Source of the DNA: Deltaproteobacteria bacterium | GTDB lineage: Bacteria; Bdellovibrionota; Bacteriovoracia; Bacteriovoracales; Bacteriovoracaceae | Length of the DNA: 34,164 nt | Assembly: GCA_006226755.1 (NCBI GenBank) | Contig: SBGE01000028.1 | Span: 1-34,164, forward strand | Reading direction: 5' to 3' | Part shown: one piece after another, positions 10,732 through 23,104 of the stretch | Layout of the letters: each line of letters opens with the position of its first letter | Numbering within the stretch: position 1 is the stretch's first letter | Program-made: the position numbers and the translations under genes | The notes under the pieces: generated by a model | The model's database searches: none | Told to the model about the DNA's origin: nothing | Seen by the model: the letters and a program-made list of their open reading frames with translations, nothing else

Positions 10732-13700
10732 ATGAAAACAAAATTCTTTTGGATCATCTGTATCTCACTGATCTCTTCCTCTATCGCGTTCGCACAGTAC
10801 GCGCCTCAGAACATTACGACGGGCAGTACTTTTGAACGTCCTGGTGTGGATGATGAAGACAAAGACTTCATCATGAAAGACGCTGAAATGGGATTGGAAG
10901 AACATAAAAAAGAGAATGATGGCAAAATCGATCTCACAAAATTCAAACCAGTTGTCATGAAGGCCTTGTATGAAACTTTTCAGGCCGAAGAGATTACCAG
11001 AAAAGAGTTGGTTGAAATCAGAAATGCTTACGAGAAATTGGAGAGAGACTCAAAGAATATGAGTCAGGCCCAAATTGAAGAAGCACTTAGAAAATTGTTC
11101 AAGCAGTTGTTCGACAAAATTCAAAGCACGAAGCTTCAATGTACTGGTGAAGGTAAACAGTGTAACGATTGGGGTTGTTGTGCCGGTCTCGTTTGTGCTG
11201 CAGTACCTGAAAGAGCTTGGCAGCCAATGAATAATTGTAAACGTTTTAGAAATGAATGTAAGCAAGACAGTGATTGCTGCTCTGGTGAATGTGTAGACGA
11301 TCTTGATAAGGGTAAAAAAGTTTGTGCAGCGGTACGAAGATGTTTCAAGCCAGGAAAAGCTGGAGCTTCTTGTGACAAGAATCCTGTCTGTGGAGAAGGT
11401 GAGTGTCTTCCATTTAATAAAGGATTACTGGGAATCAATGAATGTACTCAAAATGATAACAAATGTGCTTCAGATGATCAGTGTTGTTCTAATAAATGTA
11501 ATCAAGGTAAATGTGTAGATAACTTTCAGTGTAAAAACTGCGTGGGGCAAGGTGTAGAACCTAAGCGTGGTCAGAAGTGTTGCGAAGGTCTTTATAAAGA
11601 CCCAGATACTAAGAAGTGTAGAAGAGAAATGCCTCCATTTGTCCTTCCTCAGGTCAAGGTGGTTCCAATGAAAAAATCAATTCTTGGATTTGTTGCTTCA
11701 CTCTTTATAAGTGAAGCCCATGCTTTTCTTCCTGCCATACCAACTCCCAATCCGGTACAGGTACAAAATGCAGCAACCAATGCTGCTGAAACGGCTAAAG
11801 CAGCAGAAGTCATCAAAAATGATCAACAGTTAAGAAACAAGATCATGATGCAACAATATTACTCAGGTCCTATGCCAGGAACTCTTAATAAGGATGCCAA
11901 TTACAAAAAGCATAAATTGGAAGAGTACATGGTGAGAGAAGGTTCTGATTTCGACAAATGTGAAATCGACCTAAAAGCTGACTACCTGATTCGTCTTCGT
12001 GATTATGGAAAAGACGGAAACGGTCTTGGCGGAATCGACAACGCCATTGGTATGGAAATGGCCCTGATGGCCTTTGAATATATGGTTCTAGGTGAAGGTG
12101 TTGAAGACTTTTGGAGAGAAGATAAAAACAAGGCCAAAACAAACGTCTACCAAAGGATGAGATCAGTTGCCGAGCAACATAGAGATAACAGACACGCTAT
12201 CTTTAAAGATCTCACTGATCAATCAAGAAGACTTCAGTGTCTTTGTTGGGATAAGCAAGGCTATACAAAACTAGAAACTGATACTCAAGATAGATTCAAA
12301 GAACAATGTCCAGATGAATACGCGGCTTACTTGGCCTATAGGGACTCAAACCCTAATATGACAGATGAAGATTACTCAGGTGATGCTTCAGGGATTAAGT
12401 CTCAAGCTCTTATGGTGAGATGGTTGCAACTTATCGTGGAAATTGAAGGAGCGATGAGTATTCAAAACACCAGAGTTTTTGAAGGTCTTAATGAACTCGC
12501 TTCATGGGCCAATAATAATGACTGGGGTAATAACGAAGTTAAAAAGAAAGTTATTTATAACTGGACGATGGCCACTTCTGGTTATCAAGTTCAGGGTGGA
12601 AACTATGCTCCTGAAAGTATGAACATGGAGCAGGCGGCAATCGTTGTTGCCGGTGTTGTCGGTATCATTGCTGGTCTTGCATCACTCACCGTGTGGCCTG
12701 GTCTTTGGGTTTCAGCTGGTATCATTGCTGGGGGAGCTTCTCTAGGTAGTGCTGGGATGTGGCTGGTTGGTGCAATGAAAGGTGCTTGGGAATCGAGAGC
12801 TCCTCTCATTCAAGACAAGTCAACCAGAGCTTATAAGTGTGGTAAGAAAACTTACTGTACCGATTTCAATAGAGAATTCCATGTGCCTTACAGTAAAATC
12901 TGTAATGCCTATGTCTCAGGTAATGGTTGTTTGAAAAACTTTTTAGTGGAAACCATTGAAGATAAAGATAGATATCTTGTCGATCCATTCATTCCTTTTA
13001 GAGTAAGCAAAAGCAAAATTATTAAAGATAATACGAAATTCACAGATTACTTTAATAATGCCTATGCCAACGCTGTAACAAAGTATTCCGCGAGAAAACC
13101 TAGTGGAAATCAAGGGCAAAATTATTTGAAACGTGTTTTCATTGATGCTCTACAAGTAGGGCAAATGGCACCAAAATTCAGAATGCCTTTGAAAGATTAC
13201 TACAAAGTAACTAAGAACATGAGAGATGAGATTAAAGAAAAGGCGATGGTATACATCCTTGATGAAGGTGTTTTTGCGACAGACATCGGTCGTTGTGATC
13301 GTCCAGAACCAGGCGGAGAGTGTAGTGGAGGACAATCTCCTAACGTCGTCGAGTATGGATCTGGTAAGTGGTATTTCAATACTGCTAAGAATGCTCAAAA
13401 GATGAAGCGAGATATCGACAAGCTCGAAAAAGATATGAAGAACTTCAGTGAATATACCTATGACTTCCATTGGGTATGGCCACGTCTGGCTCAAGAAGGG
13501 ATGATTGCTTACCCAATGCCTGGATTCATTTCTTATCTTGAATTGGTATCGAATACCATGGGGAGTAAAGCAGCTGTAAACCTTGGTAACGTCAACGACA
13601 TCAATAACAAACTCTTGAAGCCTCAACTTCAAAACATGCAATTGACATGCGCCAAGTATGTAGAGGCCGAAGGTGGTACCCCTAGTGGTACAATCCAAGG

Positions 13701-14505
13701 CGACTGTAACCAGATGTTGGCCGTTCGTCTCGAGGGTGCTGTAGTTGATAAGACTGCAGGAAACGGGCTATTTGATGGAATGGATGACCTACTCAACAAT
13801 TCTGTAAACTATGCTGGAGGTTTCGACCTTGGCGCTGGAAACGGAAATGGTTCTGGTGGGAACATGGCATTTAAAGGAAACAGAGGCGGAGAAGGTGGCT
13901 CTGGAAATCTTTCCGGCGGAAGTGTTTCAGGAAGTGGGGACAGTGGTCTTCAAGGAGCTACCAAGGCCAAAAAACGCCTAAGAGAAATCAGAAAGCAACA
14001 GCTTGATAAGATGGAAAAATTTAAAGAAGCAGTTGGAGCGGCCAGAGCGAACCAACTTCTTAATGCTCAAAAGGCCATGGTCTCGAGTTTCAATAATCCA
14101 ACTGGAAGTGGAACTGTCGCTTCTCTTGGTTCTGGTGGAGTTGCCGGAATTCTTGGAAATGGAAGTGGTGGGCAAAATGCTGCTGGAAAAACCAATAGAA
14201 ATGACCTGATGGGTGGTGGAAACCTCGGTTCAAATAATAATGGAGGAGTATCGATTCCTAAGCCGAACTATGACCTAAGTTATAATACCGGAGGAGATAG
14301 TTCCGGTGGTGGTGAAATGAGTGCTGAGATGTCAGCTGCTCAAGATAGATTGGCCGAAGCTGTAGAGTACAGAGATCAAAATCCAGAGGATTATAAGAAA
14401 AATAATGAAGGGGATACTCTTTGGAAGATTATCACCCGCTCTTATATCAGAAACTACGATAAGCTTCTGAGAAAGAGAAAAAAGAATATTGATTCAGGTC
14501 TTTAA
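10732..14505 (+). CDS. Very large exported Cys-rich protein with an internal signal-peptide-like segment
   Basis: The frame extends upstream to a TTG at 10711, but the ATG at 10732 gives a clean signal peptide (MKTKFFWIICISLISSS, then IAFAQ) and a 1257-residue product. Layout: a charged helical region to about 135; a region of about 137-297 with 26 Cys in repeats such as CKQDSDCCSGEC and CASDDQCCSNKC, typical of small disulfide-knot domains; at 313 a second segment that reads like a full signal peptide (MKKSILGFVASLFISEAHA); a long mixed domain; hydrophobic stretches near 636-690 that could span a membrane; and a Gly/Ser/Asn-rich linker from about 1020 to 1200 before a charged tail. No known family was recognised overall. 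It is likely secreted or surface-exposed. A promoter with a perfect -10 box precedes it and a terminator-like hairpin follows. Confidence 0.85.
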   Translation: MKTKFFWIICISLISSSIAFAQYAPQNITTGSTFERPGVDDEDKDFIMKDAEMGLEEHKKENDGKIDLTKFKPVVMKALYETFQAEEITRKELVEIRNAYEKLERDSKNMSQAQIEEALRKLFKQLFDKIQSTKLQCTGEGKQCNDWGCCAGLVCAAVPERAWQPMNNCKRFRNECKQDSDCCSGECVDDLDKGKKVCAAVRRCFKPGKAGASCDKNPVCGEGECLPFNKGLLGINECTQNDNKCASDDQCCSNKCNQGKCVDNFQCKNCVGQGVEPKRGQKCCEGLYKDPDTKKCRREMPPFVLPQVKVVPMKKSILGFVASLFISEAHAFLPAIPTPNPVQVQNAATNAAETAKAAEVIKNDQQLRNKIMMQQYYSGPMPGTLNKDANYKKHKLEEYMVREGSDFDKCEIDLKADYLIRLRDYGKDGNGLGGIDNAIGMEMALMAFEYMVLGEGVEDFWREDKNKAKTNVYQRMRSVAEQHRDNRHAIFKDLTDQSRRLQCLCWDKQGYTKLETDTQDRFKEQCPDEYAAYLAYRDSNPNMTDEDYSGDASGIKSQALMVRWLQLIVEIEGAMSIQNTRVFEGLNELASWANNNDWGNNEVKKKVIYNWTMATSGYQVQGGNYAPESMNMEQAAIVVAGVVGIIAGLASLTVWPGLWVSAGIIAGGASLGSAGMWLVGAMKGAWESRAPLIQDKSTRAYKCGKKTYCTDFNREFHVPYSKICNAYVSGNGCLKNFLVETIEDKDRYLVDPFIPFRVSKSKIIKDNTKFTDYFNNAYANAVTKYSARKPSGNQGQNYLKRVFIDALQVGQMAPKFRMPLKDYYKVTKNMRDEIKEKAMVYILDEGVFATDIGRCDRPEPGGECSGGQSPNVVEYGSGKWYFNTAKNAQKMKRDIDKLEKDMKNFSEYTYDFHWVWPRLAQEGMIAYPMPGFISYLELVSNTMGSKAAVNLGNVNDINNKLLKPQLQNMQLTCAKYVEAEGGTPSGTIQGDCNQMLAVRLEGAVVDKTAGNGLFDGMDDLLNNSVNYAGGFDLGAGNGNGSGGNMAFKGNRGGEGGSGNLSGGSVSGSGDSGLQGATKAKKRLREIRKQQLDKMEKFKEAVGAARANQLLNAQKAMVSSFNNPTGSGTVASLGSGGVAGILGNGSGGQNAAGKTNRNDLMGGGNLGSNNNGGVSIPKPNYDLSYNTGGDSSGGGEMSAEMSAAQDRLAEAVEYRDQNPEDYKKNNEGDTLWKIITRSYIRNYDKLLRKRKKNIDSGL

Positions 14506-14527: not shown

Positions 14528-14585
14528 AAAGCCTTCTTCCTGTAGAATAAAAGATATCTACACTTCAAAGGGAGAAGGCTTTTTT
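14528..14585 (+). terminator. Terminator-like nested hairpin that also contains the next gene's ribosome site
   Basis: The outer stem pairs AAAGCCTTCT (14528-14537) plus CC with GGAGAAGGCTT (14571-14581), with one bulged T, and runs into six T at 14580-14585. An inner stem pairs TGTAGA (14541-14546) with TCTACA (14557-14562). This is a good intrinsic terminator for the large upstream gene. However, GGAGAAGG in the 3' arm is also the ribosome site for the TTG start at 14584, so the structure could control expression of the next operon. Confidence 0.7.
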
Positions 14586-15684
14586 GCGTCAGGACGACTC
14601 AAGAATTGTAAATTTTGACCTTCTAAGAGGATTTTTCATCTTCTTGGCCTTGTGGCAACACTTCGCTTATTACCTCAATATTTGGTACGCTGAATACTTT
14701 CGTGAGATGGGAGTACTTGAGAAAAATTATCTGTCTCACAAGCATATGATTGGTTTCAATCTTCCTGTTGATTCTTTCTCTCATTGGGCAGCTTGGTTTT
14801 TTACACCTTGGGTAAGTCAGGTTTATCTGACTCTGGCGGCCTTTAATCTAGCGAAGAGAAGCCAAGAAGAGTTCAAGTTTGTCTTTGCTAGCAAGCTTAA
14901 AATATTCGGCCTGCTCTATCTGTACTTTGTGATGGAAAACATTCTTGTCGCTCCGAACTTTGGGGAAGGCATAAGTTTTTATCCGATTATGAGTTGGATG
15001 ATCATTTTGACTTTGAATGCTGTTCTCTATCGATATTTTGGTATCAAGGGCGTTTTCGTACTTTTTGTTTTGAGTTTCGCCAAGTGGTTCGCGCCAGACT
15101 CCTGGTATGACAGCGGCGGTTTGGAATATTGGATGCAACAGAATGTGCATGCTCAGTATGAGCTTGATGCTCAGATTCATTACTTTCTCACCAGTGGCTG
15201 TATGGGATTCATATTGGGTTGGATCAATTCCCAAAAAGAAGAATGGGGTTATAAAAGAGAGCTTGGTCAATTTGTCTTGGGCTTTATCCTTCTTATGGTT
15301 TGGGTGATCTGGGGAGAGAAGTTTACAGTCAATTTCATGGATGTATTTGAAACGGAGCATGATCTTGCCGATGACATTCTTGGCCTTCTCAGCATTCTTG
15401 GTGTCCAACTCATGGTACTCTCTTCTTTTCTCTTTGCTGAGAAAAAAGGTTTCTCTTTCAAAGTTCCGCTTTTGCATTGGATTGGAGTTAATTCCTTGAC
15501 GATTTTCGCCTTTCATCGTGTGCTCTTTGTTCACTTCATGGTTCCTGTCATGATGATTGTGGCCAACTTCAATAAGACGATTTTGATTAATAAATGGTAT
15601 ATTTGTTGGGGGAGTACTTTACTGGTCTGCCTCTTTACTTGGTTTGTACAAAAAACCCAGATACACAAACTTGTGGTGAGATAA
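14584..15684 (+). CDS. Polytopic membrane protein resembling membrane acyltransferases
   Basis: The 366-residue protein has about ten hydrophobic helices. The N-terminus reads RIVNFDLLRGFFIFLALWQHFAYY, which matches the opening of the membrane acyltransferase families (acyltransferase-3 or the DUF1624/HGSNAT-like group: Arg, then D-L-L-R-G, then a His in helix 1). A second His lies late in WIGVNSLTIFAFHRVLF. The role could be acylation of a sugar or amine at the inner membrane; the substrate is unknown. The start is a TTG at 14584; GGAGAAGG lies five bases upstream, and no other start keeps the family's N-terminus. Its stop is one base before the SpeD-fusion start, so these genes are probably cotranscribed, which hints at a shared pathway with polyamine chemistry. 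Confidence 0.75.
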   Translation: MRQDDSRIVNFDLLRGFFIFLALWQHFAYYLNIWYAEYFREMGVLEKNYLSHKHMIGFNLPVDSFSHWAAWFFTPWVSQVYLTLAAFNLAKRSQEEFKFVFASKLKIFGLLYLYFVMENILVAPNFGEGISFYPIMSWMIILTLNAVLYRYFGIKGVFVLFVLSFAKWFAPDSWYDSGGLEYWMQQNVHAQYELDAQIHYFLTSGCMGFILGWINSQKEEWGYKRELGQFVLGFILLMVWVIWGEKFTVNFMDVFETEHDLADDILGLLSILGVQLMVLSSFLFAEKKGFSFKVPLLHWIGVNSLTIFAFHRVLFVHFMVPVMMIVANFNKTILINKWYICWGSTLLVCLFTWFVQKTQIHKLVVR

Positions 15685-15685
15685 G

Positions 15686-16777
15686 ATGGATATACGATCG
15701 CAGCACATGCTCGTCGATTTATGGTTTCAAAACGAACTTAAAAGTTCGGATATTGAAAACATCTGTAGCGTTATTGAAAGTGATCTGACTGTCATCAAGA
15801 AGTCGAGTCATCAATTTGAACCTCATGGAGAAACAATAGTTTTCATTCTGGGAGAGTCACATTTTTCTTTGCATACATACCCTGAACATAATTACGTCAC
15901 ATTAGATGTCTACATTTGTAATATGGATGTAGATCTACATGCTATTTTGGAAAAGATTGTTAAGAATCTTGATCTTCTTCATATCGAAAGAAAGTTTCTT
16001 ACGAGAGGAGAGTGGGAAGAATTTGATGAGAAAAATGTTGAACTGAGTCCTACCCAAAAGAAAGCTTCAAGTCTTTTGGTCATTACATTCATCGTTGCGG
16101 CTTGCTCAATCATTTACGAACTACTTATGGCCCAAACCTTGTCTTCAACTCTCGGAGACACCACCTTTCGTTACAATATGACGATTGGACTTTATATTGC
16201 TGCTATGGGGATAGGGGCCCTTTGTTATGAAAAGTTGATGAAAGGAGATAAGCTCCAAAATCTAGCAAAGCTAGAGGGTGTTATCTCTATTGTGGGTGGC
16301 TTAGCTCCAATAGCCGTACTGTTTGGTGATTTGGTTGCTCACTGGCTTACCAAAGTGATGGGAATAAATTATTTTGGCTTTTTCATTCAAACCTATTTGT
16401 CGATTTTTTGCTACGGTATTATTGTTTTGATCGGCTTCTTGACAGGACTCGAGCTTCCTCTTTTGATGGAACTTGGAAAGAGAATCAAAGAAAAATATGG
16501 CTCAATTGTCCTTTCTGTCGATTACTTGGGGACACTTGCTGGGGTTGTGGCCTTTCCTATTATCATCTTTCCAAATTTCGAACTTTTTTCAATTGGATTC
16601 CTCGTTGCATTTTTGAATGCTTGTGTCGCGTTGGTTTTATATTTCACCAACGGTATTAAAAACATAAAAATTATGATTCCTTTGATTCTTGTGGCCGTGT
16701 TCTATCTGGTCGCTCTAATCAATGGCAGTACTATTAACCAGTTTATCTTGAAAAAGATGTACTACTTTAATCTGTAG
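15686..16777 (+). CDS. speD: AdoMet decarboxylase (SpeD) fused to a spermidine-synthase-type membrane domain
   Basis: Residues 1 to about 115 are a class 1b S-adenosylmethionine decarboxylase. The self-cleavage motif is GESHFSLHTYPE, with Ser58 as the future pyruvoyl group, His63 for processing and Cys78 as proton donor (VYICN). The spacing (+5, +20) equals that of Ser63, His68 and Cys83 in the Thermotoga maritima enzyme as I recall it. Residues from about 125 to 363 form seven or so membrane helices (CSIIYELLMAQTLSSTLGD, GLYIAAMGIGALCYEKL, GLELPLLMELGKR, VDYLGTLAGVVAFP). They are clearly related to the membrane half of the next gene and of membrane-linked spermidine synthases. Normal SpeD is soluble and ends near 120-130 residues, so this is a true fusion. 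It would supply decarboxylated AdoMet at the inner membrane. Confidence 0.88.
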   Translation: MDIRSQHMLVDLWFQNELKSSDIENICSVIESDLTVIKKSSHQFEPHGETIVFILGESHFSLHTYPEHNYVTLDVYICNMDVDLHAILEKIVKNLDLLHIERKFLTRGEWEEFDEKNVELSPTQKKASSLLVITFIVAACSIIYELLMAQTLSSTLGDTTFRYNMTIGLYIAAMGIGALCYEKLMKGDKLQNLAKLEGVISIVGGLAPIAVLFGDLVAHWLTKVMGINYFGFFIQTYLSIFCYGIIVLIGFLTGLELPLLMELGKRIKEKYGSIVLSVDYLGTLAGVVAFPIIIFPNFELFSIGFLVAFLNACVALVLYFTNGIKNIKIMIPLILVAVFYLVALINGSTINQFILKKMYYFNL

Positions 16778-16785
16778 GATGAGGC

Positions 16786-18486
16786 ATGCTAGATAAATCA
16801 GTAAAGCAGACATTGGTTGTGACTTTGCTTTTGAGTTTTTGCAGTATTGTCTACGAGTTGACACTCGCCAATACCTTATCCATTTTGACTGGTAACTATA
16901 TCTGGTGGCATTCCTGGACGATTGGTTTTTACATTGCAGGTTTGGGATTCGGAGCATTGAAGGCAGGAAAGAAACTTAATTCCTGGCGTGAACTTTTTTG
17001 GATTGAGATTGGTTTGTCTATTTTAGGTTCAATCAGTGTGGTTTACGTCCATTTTCTTTATCTGGTTTTCTATAGCTATGATTATATGGCCTATATGGGA
17101 GGGGAGTTCTACACCGCTTCTTATATTCAGAACAGTTTCTATATGAAAGTCTTTTTCTTTGTGATGGCACAGTCTGTGACTTTCTTGATTGGACTACTTT
17201 CAGGTTTTGAGATTCCTCTTCTGATGAAAATTTTAAAGGAATCTACCGGCAAGGATCACGAAAACAAAGTCTTGGGATTTAACTATATTGGAACACTTGT
17301 TGGAACGCTTTTCTTTGCTCTTTTCTTCCTGCCAAAATTGGATGTTTTCTGGACGGCGATCATTGTCGCTGGAATGAACTTGATGATTTGTCTCTATATA
17401 GTGCTACAAAGAAGAGTTAAGCATTCTCCTGACGTTCTGGTACCAAGTGCTCTGGTCTTCTTATTTTTAGTTTTTATGAGCTTTAAGAATGACAAGATTG
17501 TGGAGACATATCTTAAAATTCGTTACCATGCTCACCGTATCATCACTGAAGATAAAACTCAGTTTGGAACATTTCTTGAACATTTGAATCGAATCAAACC
17601 TGTAGAGAGAATTAAGTCCCTCTATCAATACATAGACGTTTTTGAAGTCGATGAAAAAGATGGAACGGTTGAAACCATCGTTACGATGGATAGTAACTTT
17701 CAGTTCTCTACTTTGACAGAAAAGTTTTATCACGAAGGTTTTTCCCACGTGGCCATGAATTTGGTTGGTCAAAGACCTAAAAATATTCTTGTTCTAGGTG
17801 CCGGTGACGGTTTCCTTTTAAGAGAACTTTTGAAGTACGATGAAATCGAGAAAATCACTCATATTGAACTTGATCCTGAAATTCTCAAACTTGCCAGAAG
17901 AGACAAGTTTAAAAAAATAAACAAATCAAGTCTCGATAATCCAAGAGTTAATACGATTGTTGGGGATGGCTTTTTCTATCTTCGAAATACCGATGAAAAG
18001 TTTGATGCCATCTTTATCGATTTTCCTTATCCAAAGAATTACAACTTGGCGCGACTGTATTCTGTTGAGTTTTATACTTACGTCAAGGCCAGGCTTAAAC
18101 CTGATGGCTTTGCTGTTCTCGATACTCCTGTTTTTGAGAAAAAGTCATTTGATAAGAAAAAGTATTATGGACAGCTTATTGATAAGCCGATTTTTACAAT
18201 CAAAGATTTGCAGAACAACTCCATTATTCTTAGCACCATTCATTACTCTGGATTCACCAAGTATTTGCCTTACAAAGTGGGGGGAGAGTCGTTTGTTGTG
18301 ATGCGAAACTCGGATACCCCCTTCCAGTTCGACCTCGACAAGGCCGATCTTTCAAAGATTGAGTCAGTGACAGATGTTCAACTCAGAGCAATATCGGACC
18401 AGTATTTTCCCTATGAGATCAAGGAAAAGTACGTGAATTCGATCTTTCATCCAACCATACTCGACGCCGGACTTTCCCAGTTCTGA
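16786..18486 (+). CDS. speE: Membrane-linked aminopropyltransferase (spermidine synthase-like) with altered active site
   Basis: The 566-residue protein has seven N-terminal membrane helices (1 to about 235), then a Rossmann methyltransferase-like domain of the spermidine synthase family. The nucleotide loop is LVLGAGDGFLLREL (336-349), followed by the acidic IELDPE (360-365), the GDGFFYL motif near 393 and the catalytic-loop Asp412 (IFIDFPYP). It should move an aminopropyl group from decarboxylated AdoMet to an amine. Two residues differ from the family: RDE.xYHE reads LTEKFYHE (Thr311 where Asp grips the substrate amine), and DxxDP reads DFPYP (Tyr415 for the second Asp). The acceptor may therefore be unusual. 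The gene starts eight bases after the SpeD fusion, with GGATGAGG before the ATG. Confidence 0.87.
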   Translation: MLDKSVKQTLVVTLLLSFCSIVYELTLANTLSILTGNYIWWHSWTIGFYIAGLGFGALKAGKKLNSWRELFWIEIGLSILGSISVVYVHFLYLVFYSYDYMAYMGGEFYTASYIQNSFYMKVFFFVMAQSVTFLIGLLSGFEIPLLMKILKESTGKDHENKVLGFNYIGTLVGTLFFALFFLPKLDVFWTAIIVAGMNLMICLYIVLQRRVKHSPDVLVPSALVFLFLVFMSFKNDKIVETYLKIRYHAHRIITEDKTQFGTFLEHLNRIKPVERIKSLYQYIDVFEVDEKDGTVETIVTMDSNFQFSTLTEKFYHEGFSHVAMNLVGQRPKNILVLGAGDGFLLRELLKYDEIEKITHIELDPEILKLARRDKFKKINKSSLDNPRVNTIVGDGFFYLRNTDEKFDAIFIDFPYPKNYNLARLYSVEFYTYVKARLKPDGFAVLDTPVFEKKSFDKKKYYGQLIDKPIFTIKDLQNNSIILSTIHYSGFTKYLPYKVGGESFVVMRNSDTPFQFDLDKADLSKIESVTDVQLRAISDQYFPYEIKEKYVNSIFHPTILDAGLSQF

Positions 18487-18528: not shown

Positions 18529-19989
18529 ATGCGGGATTCTATCTGCTTTTCAATAAATGGACAGTCACATGAAGTGAAAGGCGACAAGGTATTCATGACT
18601 TTGTCAGATTACTTGCGCTACGACCAAAATATGCCTGGTACTAAAGTTGTATGCGCTGAAGGGGATTGTGGCGCATGTACCGTACTTGTGGGCTCAGTAA
18701 GAGACCTGAATTCAGGAAAAATCAAATACCGTTCAATCAATTCATGTATTTCGTTTCTTTATACTTTGGATCTTCATTCCATTGTAACCATTGAGGGAAT
18801 CGAAGATAGTGAACTTCATCCTGTTCAAGAGTCTATGCGAGTGAATCATGGGGCGCAATGTGGTTATTGTACACCTGGATTTGTTTGCGCAATGGCAGGA
18901 ATGACGGATACATTGATCAGAGAAAAGAAGCCTCTTGAAACCAAGCGCTCGATGAATTATCTCACTGGAAATCTTTGTCGATGTACAGGCTATGAACCGA
19001 TCATCAAGGCATGTGAGACCCTTGATCTAAAAAAAATCACGCCACTTTATGAGCGTTATCACGATCAGAAGATGATTGATCAATATACTGAACTTTCAAA
19101 ACAAGATGTTCGAATCTCAACTCAAACTCGAGAACTTCGTCTTCCAGCGACTGAAGAAGGTGCCCTAAAAATTAAAAGTGCTGAAGTACGCATTACAAGC
19201 GGCGCGACTGATTTGGGAGTGTTGGTAAACAAAGGCAAGCTTGAGCAACAAAAGGTGGCTTGCTTCAACAATGTTTCTGATTTTTACAAAATTGAAAAAA
19301 TTGGTCGTGAATACCATGTCGGAGCTAAAGTGACTTGGACCGCCCTTGAAGAGGCAATTGAAAAAGATCTTCCTGAATATGCTGATATGATCAAAATTTT
19401 CGCTTCTCCACAAATCAAGAATCAAGGTACTTTGATTGGAAATATTGCTAATGCTTCTCCAATTGCCGATGGTATTCCTTATTTGATGGTCAATGATTCT
19501 CGACTTATTCTTGCCTCTAAAAATGGTGAGCGAGAAGTTGAAACCAAGAATTTTTTTAAAGGCTACAAACAACTTGATCTGCAATCTGATGAAATAATCA
19601 AAAAAGTCATCTTACCAGTTCCTGATAAAGACGTTTGGACCAAACTGTATAAAGTCAGTCTAAGACGAGATATGGATATTTCAGCAGTCACCTTTGCAGG
19701 TACAATAAATGTGGTTAAAGATAAAATTAACTCAGTTCAATTAGCTCTAGGTGGAGTGGGACCTATTGTCCTTCGTTTACCAAAAACAGAAGCGGCCTTG
19801 ATTGGAAAAGATTTTTCCCGAGAAGAATTCTTCAAAGCAAGAGATATCCTGATTACTGAAATTACTCCCATATCAGATATCAGAGGTTCTAGAGAATTCC
19901 GTCTTCAAGTGGCGAAAAATCTCTTGATGAAATTTCATGATGAATTGGCCAAAGAAAAACTGTCCCAAGAAGTGGAGGTGAGGCTATGA
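18529..19989 (+). CDS. xdhA: Xanthine dehydrogenase small subunit (2Fe-2S and FAD domains)
   Basis: This 486-residue subunit carries electrons from the molybdenum site to NAD+ through two iron-sulfur clusters and FAD. The plant-type 2Fe-2S cluster uses Cys42, 47, 50 and 73 (CAEGDCGAC), and the second cluster Cys111, 114, 150 and 152 (CGYCTPGF, CRCTGY). The FAD domain follows from about 190, with ITSGATDLGVLV and GTLIGNIANASPIADGIPYL. The fused FeS-FAD layout is that of the Rhodobacter-type XdhA. The gene overlaps xdhB by ATGA, so the two are translationally coupled. In a prey-eating or scavenging cell it would degrade hypoxanthine and xanthine to urate. Confidence 0.95.
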   Translation: MRDSICFSINGQSHEVKGDKVFMTLSDYLRYDQNMPGTKVVCAEGDCGACTVLVGSVRDLNSGKIKYRSINSCISFLYTLDLHSIVTIEGIEDSELHPVQESMRVNHGAQCGYCTPGFVCAMAGMTDTLIREKKPLETKRSMNYLTGNLCRCTGYEPIIKACETLDLKKITPLYERYHDQKMIDQYTELSKQDVRISTQTRELRLPATEEGALKIKSAEVRITSGATDLGVLVNKGKLEQQKVACFNNVSDFYKIEKIGREYHVGAKVTWTALEEAIEKDLPEYADMIKIFASPQIKNQGTLIGNIANASPIADGIPYLMVNDSRLILASKNGEREVETKNFFKGYKQLDLQSDEIIKKVILPVPDKDVWTKLYKVSLRRDMDISAVTFAGTINVVKDKINSVQLALGGVGPIVLRLPKTEAALIGKDFSREEFFKARDILITEITPISDIRGSREFRLQVAKNLLMKFHDELAKEKLSQEVEVRL

Positions 19990-22295
19990 GTATTGGAAAG
20001 AATATTGCTCATGATTCCTCAATTGGGCATGTTACTGGGAAATCGATATTCATAGATGATCGAGCAGCCATTCAAGGAGAACTTCAAGTCGGTGTGGTTG
20101 GAGCTCCTGTAGCAGCGGGAAGACTAAAACAAGTCAATACCAGAAGAGCTGAGCTTATTCCTGGTGTGGTGGGAATTTTTACTGCTAAGGACCTCCATCA
20201 CAATCAGTGGGGAACCATTATCAAACATCAACCGATTTTGGTTGAAGATAAGATCGGCTATATGCACGAGCCAACTGTAGTGGTCGCCGCTGAGACACGT
20301 GAAGCGCTTACAAAAGCTCTACGAGTTATTGAGATCGAATGTGAGGAAGGAAAACCAGTCTTCACCATTGATGAAGCGATCGCCAAAGAGGATTTCTTGT
20401 ATGAGGCCACTCCCTTTGTCCAAGGAGATGTGGAGCAGGCCTTGAAAACTGCAGATCATAGGTTGAAGCAGTCATTTGAATGTGGAGGACAAGAGCATTT
20501 CTATCTTGAGAGTCAGGCGACAGTCGCTATTCCTCTAGAAAACGGTCAAATGGAAATACACTCTTCAAGCCAGCATCCGACAGAAACACAGCATGTCGTT
20601 GCACACGCTTTGGGACTTCCATACCATTACGTGACATGTACAGTGAAGCGAATGGGTGGGGGATTTGGAGGCAAAGAATCTCAGGCGGCTCCTTTTGCCG
20701 CAATGGCAGCAATGGTTGCTGCTAAATTCAATCGTCCGGCCCGTCTCATTCTTTCTAAAGATGATGACATGCAGATGACTGGAAAACGACATCCTTTCAA
20801 AAATTTCTATGAAGTGGGATTTACAAAAGAAGGTATGATCACAGCTCTTAAAGCTGATCTTTATTCTGATGCTGGAGCCTATGCCGATCTTTCAAGCTCC
20901 ATCATGGAAAGGGCCATGTTTCATATCGATAGCGCGTACTATGTTGAAAATGTCTTGATCACAGGAAGATGTTGTAAGACCAATCACCACTCCAATACAG
21001 CATTTAGGGGTTTTGGAGGGCCACAAGGCGCCATTACCATGGAGGCCTTGATTGAAGATATTGCCAAAGTTGTAGGGAAAGATCCGGCCGAAGTTCGCCG
21101 TTTGAATCTTTATGGAAAAGACGTTCGAAACAGAACTCCTTATGGACAAATCATTGATCACAATCCTCTTCCCGAAATGACGGATAGAATTTTATCCGAA
21201 AGTGAATATGCAAGACTTCGAAGTGAAGTGGATGCCTTTAATGCCAAAAAATGTGGAAAGGTCAGAGGACTGGCCCTATCTTATACCAAGTTTGGAATTG
21301 CTTTCACCGCCAAATTTCTCAATCAAGGAAATGCTTTGGTGAATGTACACCTAGATGGAACCGTTCAGGCCTCAACTGGTGCCACTGAAATGGGACAAGG
21401 GGTGAATACCAAGATTCAGCAAGTGATCGCTCATGCTTTTGGAATTCCTCCTAAAGATGTCCAGTTGATGCCTACGTCAACTGATAAAAATCACAACACT
21501 TCTCCTACAGCTGCTTCGAGTGGTTCAGATATTAATTCTGCTGCCGCCCTGATGGCCTGTGACAAGATCAAACGTCGGTTACAAATACTTCTTCACAAGT
21601 TTTGGAATGGAGAGACCTTTGATGATGTGAAAGAGATTGAATTGGATTTTGAAGGAGACCTGGACCATATCGAATTTATTGATGAAAAAATCATCGATAC
21701 CAAAACCAAAAAAGAGTTACCATTCAAAGAGGCCATCACCATGGCGTATTTAAACAGGATATCTCTTGGTGGATATGCCTTTTTTAAGACTGAGAACCTT
21801 GGATTTGACAAAAAGAAATGTGAAGGGCGGGCCTTCAATTATTTCACCAATGGAGCTGCTGTATCCATGGTGGAAATTGATGAATACACTGGAGAGATGA
21901 AAGTATTGATGACCAGAATTCTTATGGATCTTGGACGTCCTCTTAACCCTGGAATTGATCGTGGTCAGGTGACAGGAGCCTTTATTCAGGGGATGGGCTG
22001 GGTGACCCATGAAAGTTTGGTCTACTCAGATAAGGGTGTTCTTCTCTCTCATTCTCCTACGACTTATAAAATTCCGAATATCCAGGATACACCAAGAGAG
22101 TTCGTGGTTGATTTTATAGAAAACAATGAAAATAAACAGGCCGTTCACCGTTCGAAGGCCGTCGGCGAACCACCTTTTCTCTTGGGAGGCGCTGTCTTCT
22201 GTGCCATCAAAGATGCTATTGGTTATCGAACAGCAAATAATAAAATCTCTAGTCCTGCAACCAATGAACGTATTTTGATGGCCCTTTCGGAGTAG
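19986..22295 (+). CDS. xdhB: Xanthine dehydrogenase molybdopterin-binding subunit
   Basis: This 769-residue subunit holds the molybdenum cofactor and oxidises hypoxanthine and xanthine. Residues that mark true xanthine dehydrogenases are present: Glu231 in RMGGGFGGKES and Arg341 in NTAFRGFGGPQ (the counterparts of bovine Glu802 and Arg880), plus the catalytic Glu728 in KAVGEPPF. The cofactor loop GATEMGQGVNTK is also present. This argues against an aldehyde oxidase or CO dehydrogenase. Length is normal for the bacterial subunit. It overlaps xdhA by four bases, and its TAG is followed two bases later by the xdhC ATG. No molybdopterin biosynthesis gene lies in the window, so the cofactor must come from elsewhere in the genome. 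Confidence 0.95.
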   Translation: MSIGKNIAHDSSIGHVTGKSIFIDDRAAIQGELQVGVVGAPVAAGRLKQVNTRRAELIPGVVGIFTAKDLHHNQWGTIIKHQPILVEDKIGYMHEPTVVVAAETREALTKALRVIEIECEEGKPVFTIDEAIAKEDFLYEATPFVQGDVEQALKTADHRLKQSFECGGQEHFYLESQATVAIPLENGQMEIHSSSQHPTETQHVVAHALGLPYHYVTCTVKRMGGGFGGKESQAAPFAAMAAMVAAKFNRPARLILSKDDDMQMTGKRHPFKNFYEVGFTKEGMITALKADLYSDAGAYADLSSSIMERAMFHIDSAYYVENVLITGRCCKTNHHSNTAFRGFGGPQGAITMEALIEDIAKVVGKDPAEVRRLNLYGKDVRNRTPYGQIIDHNPLPEMTDRILSESEYARLRSEVDAFNAKKCGKVRGLALSYTKFGIAFTAKFLNQGNALVNVHLDGTVQASTGATEMGQGVNTKIQQVIAHAFGIPPKDVQLMPTSTDKNHNTSPTAASSGSDINSAAALMACDKIKRRLQILLHKFWNGETFDDVKEIELDFEGDLDHIEFIDEKIIDTKTKKELPFKEAITMAYLNRISLGGYAFFKTENLGFDKKKCEGRAFNYFTNGAAVSMVEIDEYTGEMKVLMTRILMDLGRPLNPGIDRGQVTGAFIQGMGWVTHESLVYSDKGVLLSHSPTTYKIPNIQDTPREFVVDFIENNENKQAVHRSKAVGEPPFLLGGAVFCAIKDAIGYRTANNKISSPATNERILMALSE

Positions 22296-22297
22296 TG

Positions 22298-23104
22298 ATG
22301 GAAAAAAATTTCGAAGCCTTTATTCAGGCCTGGCAAGACCACAAACAAAGCGGAAAATCTTTTGTCACTGTTACTTTAGTAAATTCGAGAGGGTCTGCAC
22401 CTCAAGATCAAGGTGCAAGAATGATTACAGACGGAAAGTCTGTTTTGTTTGGTACTATCGGTGGTGGCAAAGTAGAAGCTAGGGCCATCGAAGAAGCGGC
22501 AAAACTTATTCAAGATAAAGAAAGTAAAACACATCATGTGTTGTGGAATCTTCAAAAGGATGTCGGAATGACATGCGGGGGAGAGGTTTCACTTTTCTTT
22601 GAATGTGAGGGTGATTGTAGGAAAAATTGGATAATTTCTATTTTCGGAGCAGGACATGTTTCTCAAGAGCTATGTCGTGTCCTTGAGAGATTGGATTGCT
22701 CTATAACATGTATAGATCAACGCCAAGAATGGCTCGCAAAATTGCCAAAGACAATCAATACACTTCAGTCAGATTCACCAAAAGACTATGTGAAAGAGAT
22801 AGATGACAATTCGTTCGCCATATTAATGACTATGGGACACGCAACTGATGCTCCTATCCTAGAAGAAATACTAAAAACTAAAAATCTTCCTTATGTCGGC
22901 GTGATTGGAAGTGACTCCAAGGCGAAACTACTGAAAAATGAAATGGAAAAGGTCGGTGTCCTCAGGGAAAAAATCGATAGTTTTATTTGCCCAATTGGTG
23001 AAAGTTTTGGAGACAATAGTCCGGCTGAGATTGCTCTGAGTATTGCGGCTCAACTTATAAAAGTGAAAGATGAAGTTTTCCAAACGGCTAAACGAACAAA
23101 ATAG
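22298..23104 (+). CDS. xdhC: XdhC-type molybdenum cofactor insertion factor
   Basis: The 268-residue protein belongs to the XdhC/CoxI family. It binds sulfurated molybdenum cofactor and delivers it to XdhB. It has the N-terminal SAPQDQGARMITDGK segment with FGTIGGGKVEA, the Cys motif GMTCGGEVSLFFE, and a C-terminal Rossmann domain (IFGAGHVSQELCRVLERL, ending in ICPIGESFGDNSPAEIALSIAAQ). The ATG at 22298 is preferred to the GTG at 22295 because GGAG lies five bases before it. It is the last gene of the xdhABC operon and its stop is one base from the stop of a convergent membrane-protein gene. Confidence 0.93.
   Translation: MEKNFEAFIQAWQDHKQSGKSFVTVTLVNSRGSAPQDQGARMITDGKSVLFGTIGGGKVEARAIEEAAKLIQDKESKTHHVLWNLQKDVGMTCGGEVSLFFECEGDCRKNWIISIFGAGHVSQELCRVLERLDCSITCIDQRQEWLAKLPKTINTLQSDSPKDYVKEIDDNSFAILMTMGHATDAPILEEILKTKNLPYVGVIGSDSKAKLLKNEMEKVGVLREKIDSFICPIGESFGDNSPAEIALSIAAQLIKVKDEVFQTAKRTK

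Follow-up and report, generated by a model that had tools for sequence, protein, structure and literature searches.

SpeD and SpeE domains joined to related seven-helix membrane domains

We analyzed a 34,164-nt stretch of contig SBGE01000028.1 (assembly GCA_006226755.1; hereafter, the window) from a member of the family Bacteriovoracaceae (phylum Bdellovibrionota), a relative of predatory bacteria, in which two adjacent genes of the + strand join SpeD and SpeE domains to membrane helices. The first gene (SpeD-7TM; 15686..16777) encodes a 363-aa protein, P0001, that fuses an S-adenosylmethionine (AdoMet) decarboxylase domain, SpeD, to a domain of seven transmembrane helices (7TM), and the second (7TM-SpeE; 16786..18486) encodes a 566-aa protein, P0002, in which related helices precede a SpeE-type aminopropyltransferase domain. 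The open reading frames (ORFs) are separate, the first ending in a stop codon 8 bases before the second, and lie exactly where the original prediction, made from the sequence alone, had placed them. Residues 8-108 of P0001 match the AdoMet_dc family (PF02675; E 6.5e-21) and residues 121-359 match positions 13-239 of NF002956/PRK03612, a model for membrane polyamine aminopropyltransferases (E 8.6e-40). The latter model also matches residues 10-455 of P0002 (E 1.7e-81), of which residues 312-447 match PF01564 (E 8.1e-27). P0002 thus carries the 7TM domain and then the Spermine_synth domain in one chain; P0001 has no SpeE domain and carries SpeD instead. These matches confirm the predicted joining of SpeD to membrane helices and of related helices to SpeE. 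Both proteins score below the curated NF002956 cut-off of 472 bits (274.2 for P0002 and 136.6 for P0001) and are homologous to that family but not members of it at the curated level.

The SpeD domain (15704..16009) scores 75.1 bits against PF02675, well over the cut-off of 25, and 72.9 bits against the narrower TIGR03330 model, slightly under its cut-off of 75.65. The Glu57-Ser58 self-cleavage pair (at approximately 15854-15859) and the catalytic His63 and Cys78 are intact (Ser63, His68 and Cys83 are the T. maritima equivalents), and this Glu-Ser/His/Cys motif is identical in all 15 fused SpeD copies that we read. By these sequence criteria, the fused domain is a class-1b SpeD and a predicted AdoMet decarboxylase (AdoMetDC). 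A proline is reported to distinguish AdoMetDC from arginine decarboxylase (ADC) (PMC10407285); Pro66 of the HTYPE motif, which may or may not be that residue, is kept in the fused SpeD. In a different family of the phylum, small SpeD genes neighbor a 7TM gene in divergent orientation (L045:9030-9422, L046:7490-7897, L047:129-539 and L192:6688-7056). These proteins have a serine at the position of the catalytic histidine (ESHFIISTWPE), so that their activity may be lost or altered. Stand-alone SpeDs related closely to the fused domain (L179:7454-9331 and L180:6279-8249) accompany a LysE-type exporter and a gene for a BpsA-like (branched-chain polyamine synthase) protein.

Conservation of the fusion and of its operon

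We searched 129 genomes of the family and 369 genomes of the phylum for the fusion. SpeD-7TM was present in 17 of the 129 family genomes, distributed over six genera, and was not found outside the family among the phylum genomes. A separate contig collection returned only the nearest relative, a 77%-identical contig (L037) with the same fusion; viral contigs matched the SpeD part only, with no fusion, and plasmids gave partial matches only (25-30% identity), most of them in the membrane part. The recurrence of the architecture in 17 genomes and in L037 rules out a local frameshift or assembly error. Further, the question raised with the prediction, whether a membrane SpeE always lies next to the fused SpeD, has a positive answer: it adjoins in all 17 genomes, and the spacing between the end of SpeD-7TM and the start of the membrane SpeE is -4 to +8 bases in the 15 loci that were fully read. 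In G068, another genome, the 7TM half occurs with no SpeD attached. Its sequence falls inside the fused clade, which suggests that SpeD was lost there.

The pair closes a four-gene operon, overlooked in the original prediction, whose gene order is held across the genera with the fusion; we refer to this arrangement as system A. The first gene of the conserved cassette (10732..14505, + strand) encodes a giant, Cys-rich secreted protein of ~1257 aa with an N-terminal signal-like segment. The second (14584..15684, + strand) encodes ACT, a polytopic membrane protein of 366 aa with a DLLRG motif that resembles OpgC and acyltransferase-3 proteins by eye and has no Pfam match. The ACT gene ends 1 base before speD-7TM and lies upstream of it in 14 of the 15 loci read (G022 is without ACT). 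In one genome (G067, genus g15), the corresponding locus beside the giant gene lacks the whole block of ACT, SpeD-7TM and 7TM-SpeE. Members of the giant-protein family, which is found in 77 of the 129 family genomes and belongs to no Pfam family, are ~1130-1480 aa long; they share Cys repeats of knottin-like type, a hydrophobic stretch rich in glycine and a C-terminal motif that is conserved. The family is wider than the SpeD-7TM module and has a different conserved neighborhood in genomes without it. We considered the C-terminal motif as a general sorting tag and rejected this for the fusion genomes tested, each of which had one copy. Directly downstream of the pair (18529-23104) are genes for the small and large subunits of xanthine dehydrogenase and xdhC; as candidate functional partners they were rejected, being common neighbors only within the genus.

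A separate housekeeping pathway for polyamines

The fused SpeD is the sole PF02675 match in the genome, and we considered whether it could be the only AdoMetDC of the cell. This was rejected, because another contig of the genome (C256; L050:4534-6315) encodes a class-2 (eukaryote-type) AdoMetDC (PF01536; E 2e-56) followed by a soluble SpeE. A second AdoMetDC and a soluble SpeE were present in 16 of the 17 fusion genomes, the decarboxylase being class 2 in seven and a class-1a-sized PF02675 protein in nine; the remaining genome (G002, 92% complete) lacked both. Across the family, PF01536 matches above the cut-off occur in 39 of the 129 genomes. A third SpeE system (type C) is encoded on contig C236 (L049:6622-14143) and comprises a Band7-SHOCT protein, two DUF4178 proteins, a DUF350 protein, a membrane SpeE, an amine oxidase and a 356-aa membrane protein, a kind of cluster described previously (PMC11237479). 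Its membrane SpeE is full-length, scores over the NF002956 cut-off and keeps the DFPDP motif. No DUF350, DUF4178, Band7/PspA, ATP-grasp or amine oxidase gene was found beside the SpeD-7TM/7TM-SpeE pair. The role of the pair is almost certainly a dedicated, non-housekeeping one, and the pair is probably not a spermidine pathway.

The membrane halves are paralogous and very probably pair

The membrane halves of P0001 (16046..16762, delimited by the NF002956 match, conservation and hydropathy) and P0002 (16813..17529) align over 248 residues with 31% identity (E 8e-27) and contain the shared strings on which their paralogy had been proposed. Relatives without SpeD are widespread in the phylum. 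In these loci (system B; L126-L136, L173-L191 and L048), a stand-alone 7TM protein of ~200-250 aa is followed directly by 7TM-SpeE. In a tree of the 7TM domains, SpeD-7TM formed one clade (SH-aLRT 97) that grouped with the stand-alone 7TM proteins (89), and the 7TM-SpeE proteins of system A formed a separate clade (97) apart from that group. The simplest reading of the tree is that SpeD was added once to a pre-existing stand-alone 7TM subunit. The membrane acids of the SpeD half are Glu145, Glu256 and Asp279. The equivalent of Asp279 is kept in 15 of 15 SpeD-7TM, 29 of 30 stand-alone 7TM and 4 of 4 type C sequences, whereas almost all 7TM-SpeE proteins of systems A and B have Asn or Ser at this position (Asn166 in P0002), as would be expected if the two halves had divided a function between them. 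In addition, three proteins of 731-775 aa (L173, L174 and L175) carry both 7TM domains and SpeE in a single polypeptide, which indicates that the two membrane halves work together. The constant adjacency, the separate clades and these single-chain proteins from other families make it very probable that the halves pair, as the original prediction had put forward as a possibility.

The neighbors of system B include pilin-like genes with the N-methylation motif (PF07963), pseudopilin-like genes and genes for other exported proteins, together with a polytopic protein that is either ACT (DLLRG) or of another, DLLK-type family. Some of the pilin-like proteins have a C-terminal Hint/intein-type domain (L126:6144-7658 and L178:1557-3317), which suggests self-processing. 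In the open literature that we searched, no link between SpeE and pilins was found. An N-terminal hydrophobic, export-like segment was present in 68 of 68 proteins from the exported partner families, compared with 44% of other ORFs by the same crude test.

The paired SpeE seems to keep its donor site but not its putrescine site

In the spermidine synthase of P. falciparum, Asp199 binds the distal amine of putrescine, and His103, Asp127 and Asp196 hold the aminopropyl group of the donor, decarboxylated AdoMet (dcAdoMet) (PMC4356361). We aligned the SpeE domain of P0002 (17611..18150) to the Plasmodium enzyme (2pwp), which placed Asp196 at Asp412 (18019-18021) and Asp199 at Tyr415 (18028-18030). 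The donor and catalytic residues His316, Asp341 and Asp412 are retained, as are the YHE and GDG motifs (Tyr315, His316 and Asp341). The DxxD gatekeeper is incomplete, with Tyr415 replacing the second aspartate (DFPYP for DFPDP). Thus, the site for the donor seems to be preserved, unlike that for putrescine. At the position of the second aspartate, all system A copies have Tyr, and system B copies have Tyr or Phe in most cases and residues such as Leu, His or Ala in a few; the soluble and type C (DUF350-type membrane) SpeEs of the same family have Asp. From this pattern of substitution, the acceptor of the paired SpeE is probably not putrescine.

These results bear on a model built on the original prediction, in which the two proteins are a membrane-anchored but conventional pair, both cytosolic, that channels dcAdoMet into spermidine or a related triamine. 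The catalytic residues of SpeD and the donor and catalytic residues of SpeE are intact, as this model needs, and physical coupling of SpeD to SpeE is known from soluble fusions (PMC11107197). We regard it as quite unlikely, however, considering the separate housekeeping pair in 16 of 17 fusion genomes, the tyrosine in place of the putrescine-binding aspartate in all copies, the operon shared with a secreted protein and the predicted topology described below. The original idea of coupling the supply of dcAdoMet to its use at the inner membrane is partly supported. The pairing of the proteins agrees with it; a simple coupling that serves polyamine synthesis is not supported, in view of the second AdoMetDC and soluble SpeE, the loss of the aspartate and the topology and cysteine content that place SpeE opposite SpeD. 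A change of chemistry could also account for the altered site, if the SpeE domain catalyzed a reaction of dcAdoMet or AdoMet different from aminopropyl transfer (methyl transfer, for example) or only bound such a molecule as an envelope sensor. Plant putrescine N-methyltransferases reportedly evolved from SpeE, so that a shift of this kind has a precedent. A membrane SpeE2 of Pseudomonas likewise has changed catalytic residues and no assigned reaction (PMC7298707). Yet there would be little reason for a dedicated, fused SpeD if the donor were not dcAdoMet, and the residues that contact the aminopropyl group (His316, Asp341 and Asp412) are kept; we consider this explanation very unlikely.

Predicted location of SpeE on the opposite face of the membrane

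Averaged over 88 sequences, the hydropathy of the 7TM domain was consistent with seven membrane segments, the last being the most hydrophobic and the fifth and sixth merging in the smoothed profile. Lysines and arginines were more abundant in loops 2, 4 and 6 than in loops 1, 3 and 5 in all 88 sequences, and the proteins are predicted to be N-in/C-out. A SpeE domain that follows the seventh helix would therefore lie outside, because SpeD requires the N-terminus to be inside and the number of helices is odd. The cysteine content of the SpeE domain suggests the same independently. There was no cysteine in any of the 16 system A sequences (none in 4557 aa counted through to the C-terminus), in 21 of 23 system B sequences or in the four long chains; each of 30 soluble SpeEs had 2-5 (93 in 7800 aa, against a background of ~1.1%), and the type C SpeEs were intermediate, with one cysteine in each of four. 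Together, loop charge and cysteine content suggest that the SpeD and SpeE domains occupy opposite membrane faces, and we lean toward a SpeE domain outside the cytosol.

Topology also separates the complex that we propose below from synthesis-coupled export, in which SpeD and SpeE would both act in the cytosol on a polyamine-like acceptor, the 7TM pair would export the product and ACT might acylate it in the envelope. The 7TM domain has been characterized as transporter-like (PMC11237479), conserved membrane acids would suit a polyamine, the partners are exported and the close stand-alone relatives of the fused SpeD adjoin a LysE-type exporter. Set against this are the charge pattern and seven helices that place the domain after the seventh helix outside, a SpeE domain without cysteine and the loss of the putrescine-anchoring aspartate. 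We consider such export unlikely.

A candidate complex for aminopropylation in the envelope

We tentatively favor, with somewhat less than even confidence, a dedicated heteromeric complex of the inner membrane in which a cytosolic SpeD, a 7TM conduit and a periplasmic SpeE act on an envelope acceptor other than putrescine. In this mechanism, SpeD would cleave itself at Glu57/Ser58 on the cytosolic face and produce dcAdoMet. The paired 7TM domains would form the conduit that passes dcAdoMet across the membrane, Glu145, Glu256 and Asp279 of the SpeD half favoring a cationic substrate. On the periplasmic face, SpeE would use the dcAdoMet to aminopropylate something other than putrescine; the likeliest acceptors are amines of exported proteins (the giant secreted protein here, a pilin-like protein in related operons) or other molecules of the envelope. 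The product or client would also be the target of the polytopic ACT. Sequence comparison provides the basis of this reading (the fusion, its conservation, the paralogy and adjacency of the halves, the single-chain relatives, the Asp-to-Tyr change, the housekeeping pathway and the exported partners), and from it we infer the transport of dcAdoMet, the identity of the acceptor and the activity and reaction of the pair. An exported protein is a possible acceptor. The full scheme of trans-membrane aminopropylation, with dcAdoMet passed through the paired 7TM domains to a periplasmic SpeE that modifies exported proteins (the giant Cys-rich protein here and pilin-like proteins in relatives), is doubtful.

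Several points weigh against the proposed complex. The giant-protein family occurs in many genomes without SpeD-7TM and hence does not depend on the module. The periplasmic placement of SpeE is a prediction, and the segment after the seventh helix in the system A 7TM-SpeE proteins has ~3 Lys/Arg per 17 residues, which is atypical of an outer loop. Cysteine avoidance could have another cause, and the related sequences in which it was counted are non-independent. The predicted structure has pLDDT values of ~65-87 over the SpeD part and is unreliable over the membrane portion (<50). Furthermore, we know of no described case in which dcAdoMet crosses a membrane.

Relation to known systems

That SpeD-SpeE fusions and membrane-linked SpeE proteins were already known, as the original prediction stated, agrees with published work (PMC11107197; PMC11237479). 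Like the PRK03612/NF002956 proteins of PspA- and DUF350-linked operons (PMC11237479), P0002 has a 7TM domain N-terminal to a SpeE-type domain and matches the model in both parts. It differs in having DFPYP rather than DFPDP, an enzyme domain without cysteine and Asn in place of the membrane Asp, and in being accompanied by a further 7TM protein as partner, which here carries SpeD. Soluble SpeD-SpeE fusions, such as that of Candidatus Pelagibacter (PMC11107197), share the physical coupling of AdoMetDC to an aminopropyltransferase, and a 438-aa SpeD-SpeE fusion without the 7TM domain is present in the same phylum (L055). In the system described here, however, each enzyme has a chain and a 7TM domain to itself, and the two are predicted to lie across the membrane from each other. 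SpeD-SpeD fusions and neofunctionalized SpeDs (PMC10407285) have the same class-1b core, Ser/His/Cys motif and an extra fused domain, which here is a membrane domain and not a second SpeD. The SpeE2 of the Pseudomonas ISS locus (PMC7298707) also has membrane helices N-terminal to a SpeE domain with a changed active site and coexists with a separate canonical SpeE. It carries Thr556, Glu624 and Pro627 at the three Asp positions, whereas in P0002 the catalytic Asp is retained and the acceptor Asp is replaced. No SpeD-7TM partner of SpeE2 is mentioned in the part of the source consulted. In keeping with the original prediction, we found no previous description of a SpeD with a membrane domain in 5.39 million open papers, the subscription literature being mostly outside our search; nor did the open literature searched contain the paired 7TM/7TM-SpeE arrangement or a SpeE on the trans side of the membrane.

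Well-studied aminopropyltransferases act in the cytosol on free polyamines. If the paired SpeE is outside the cytosol and has given up its putrescine site, dcAdoMet would become an exported building block and aminopropylation a modification of the envelope. If true, trans-membrane aminopropylation would be a new post-export protein modification with its own supply of donor, and, with the topology proved, the finding would be categorically new. The clearest example is the SpeD fusion, in which donor synthesis forms part of the membrane complex itself; this makes the idea directly testable. The same logic would extend to the 7TM/7TM-SpeE pairs that lie by pilin-like genes in the phylum and perhaps also to the unexplained membrane SpeE genes of other bacteria that are annotated as spermidine synthases.

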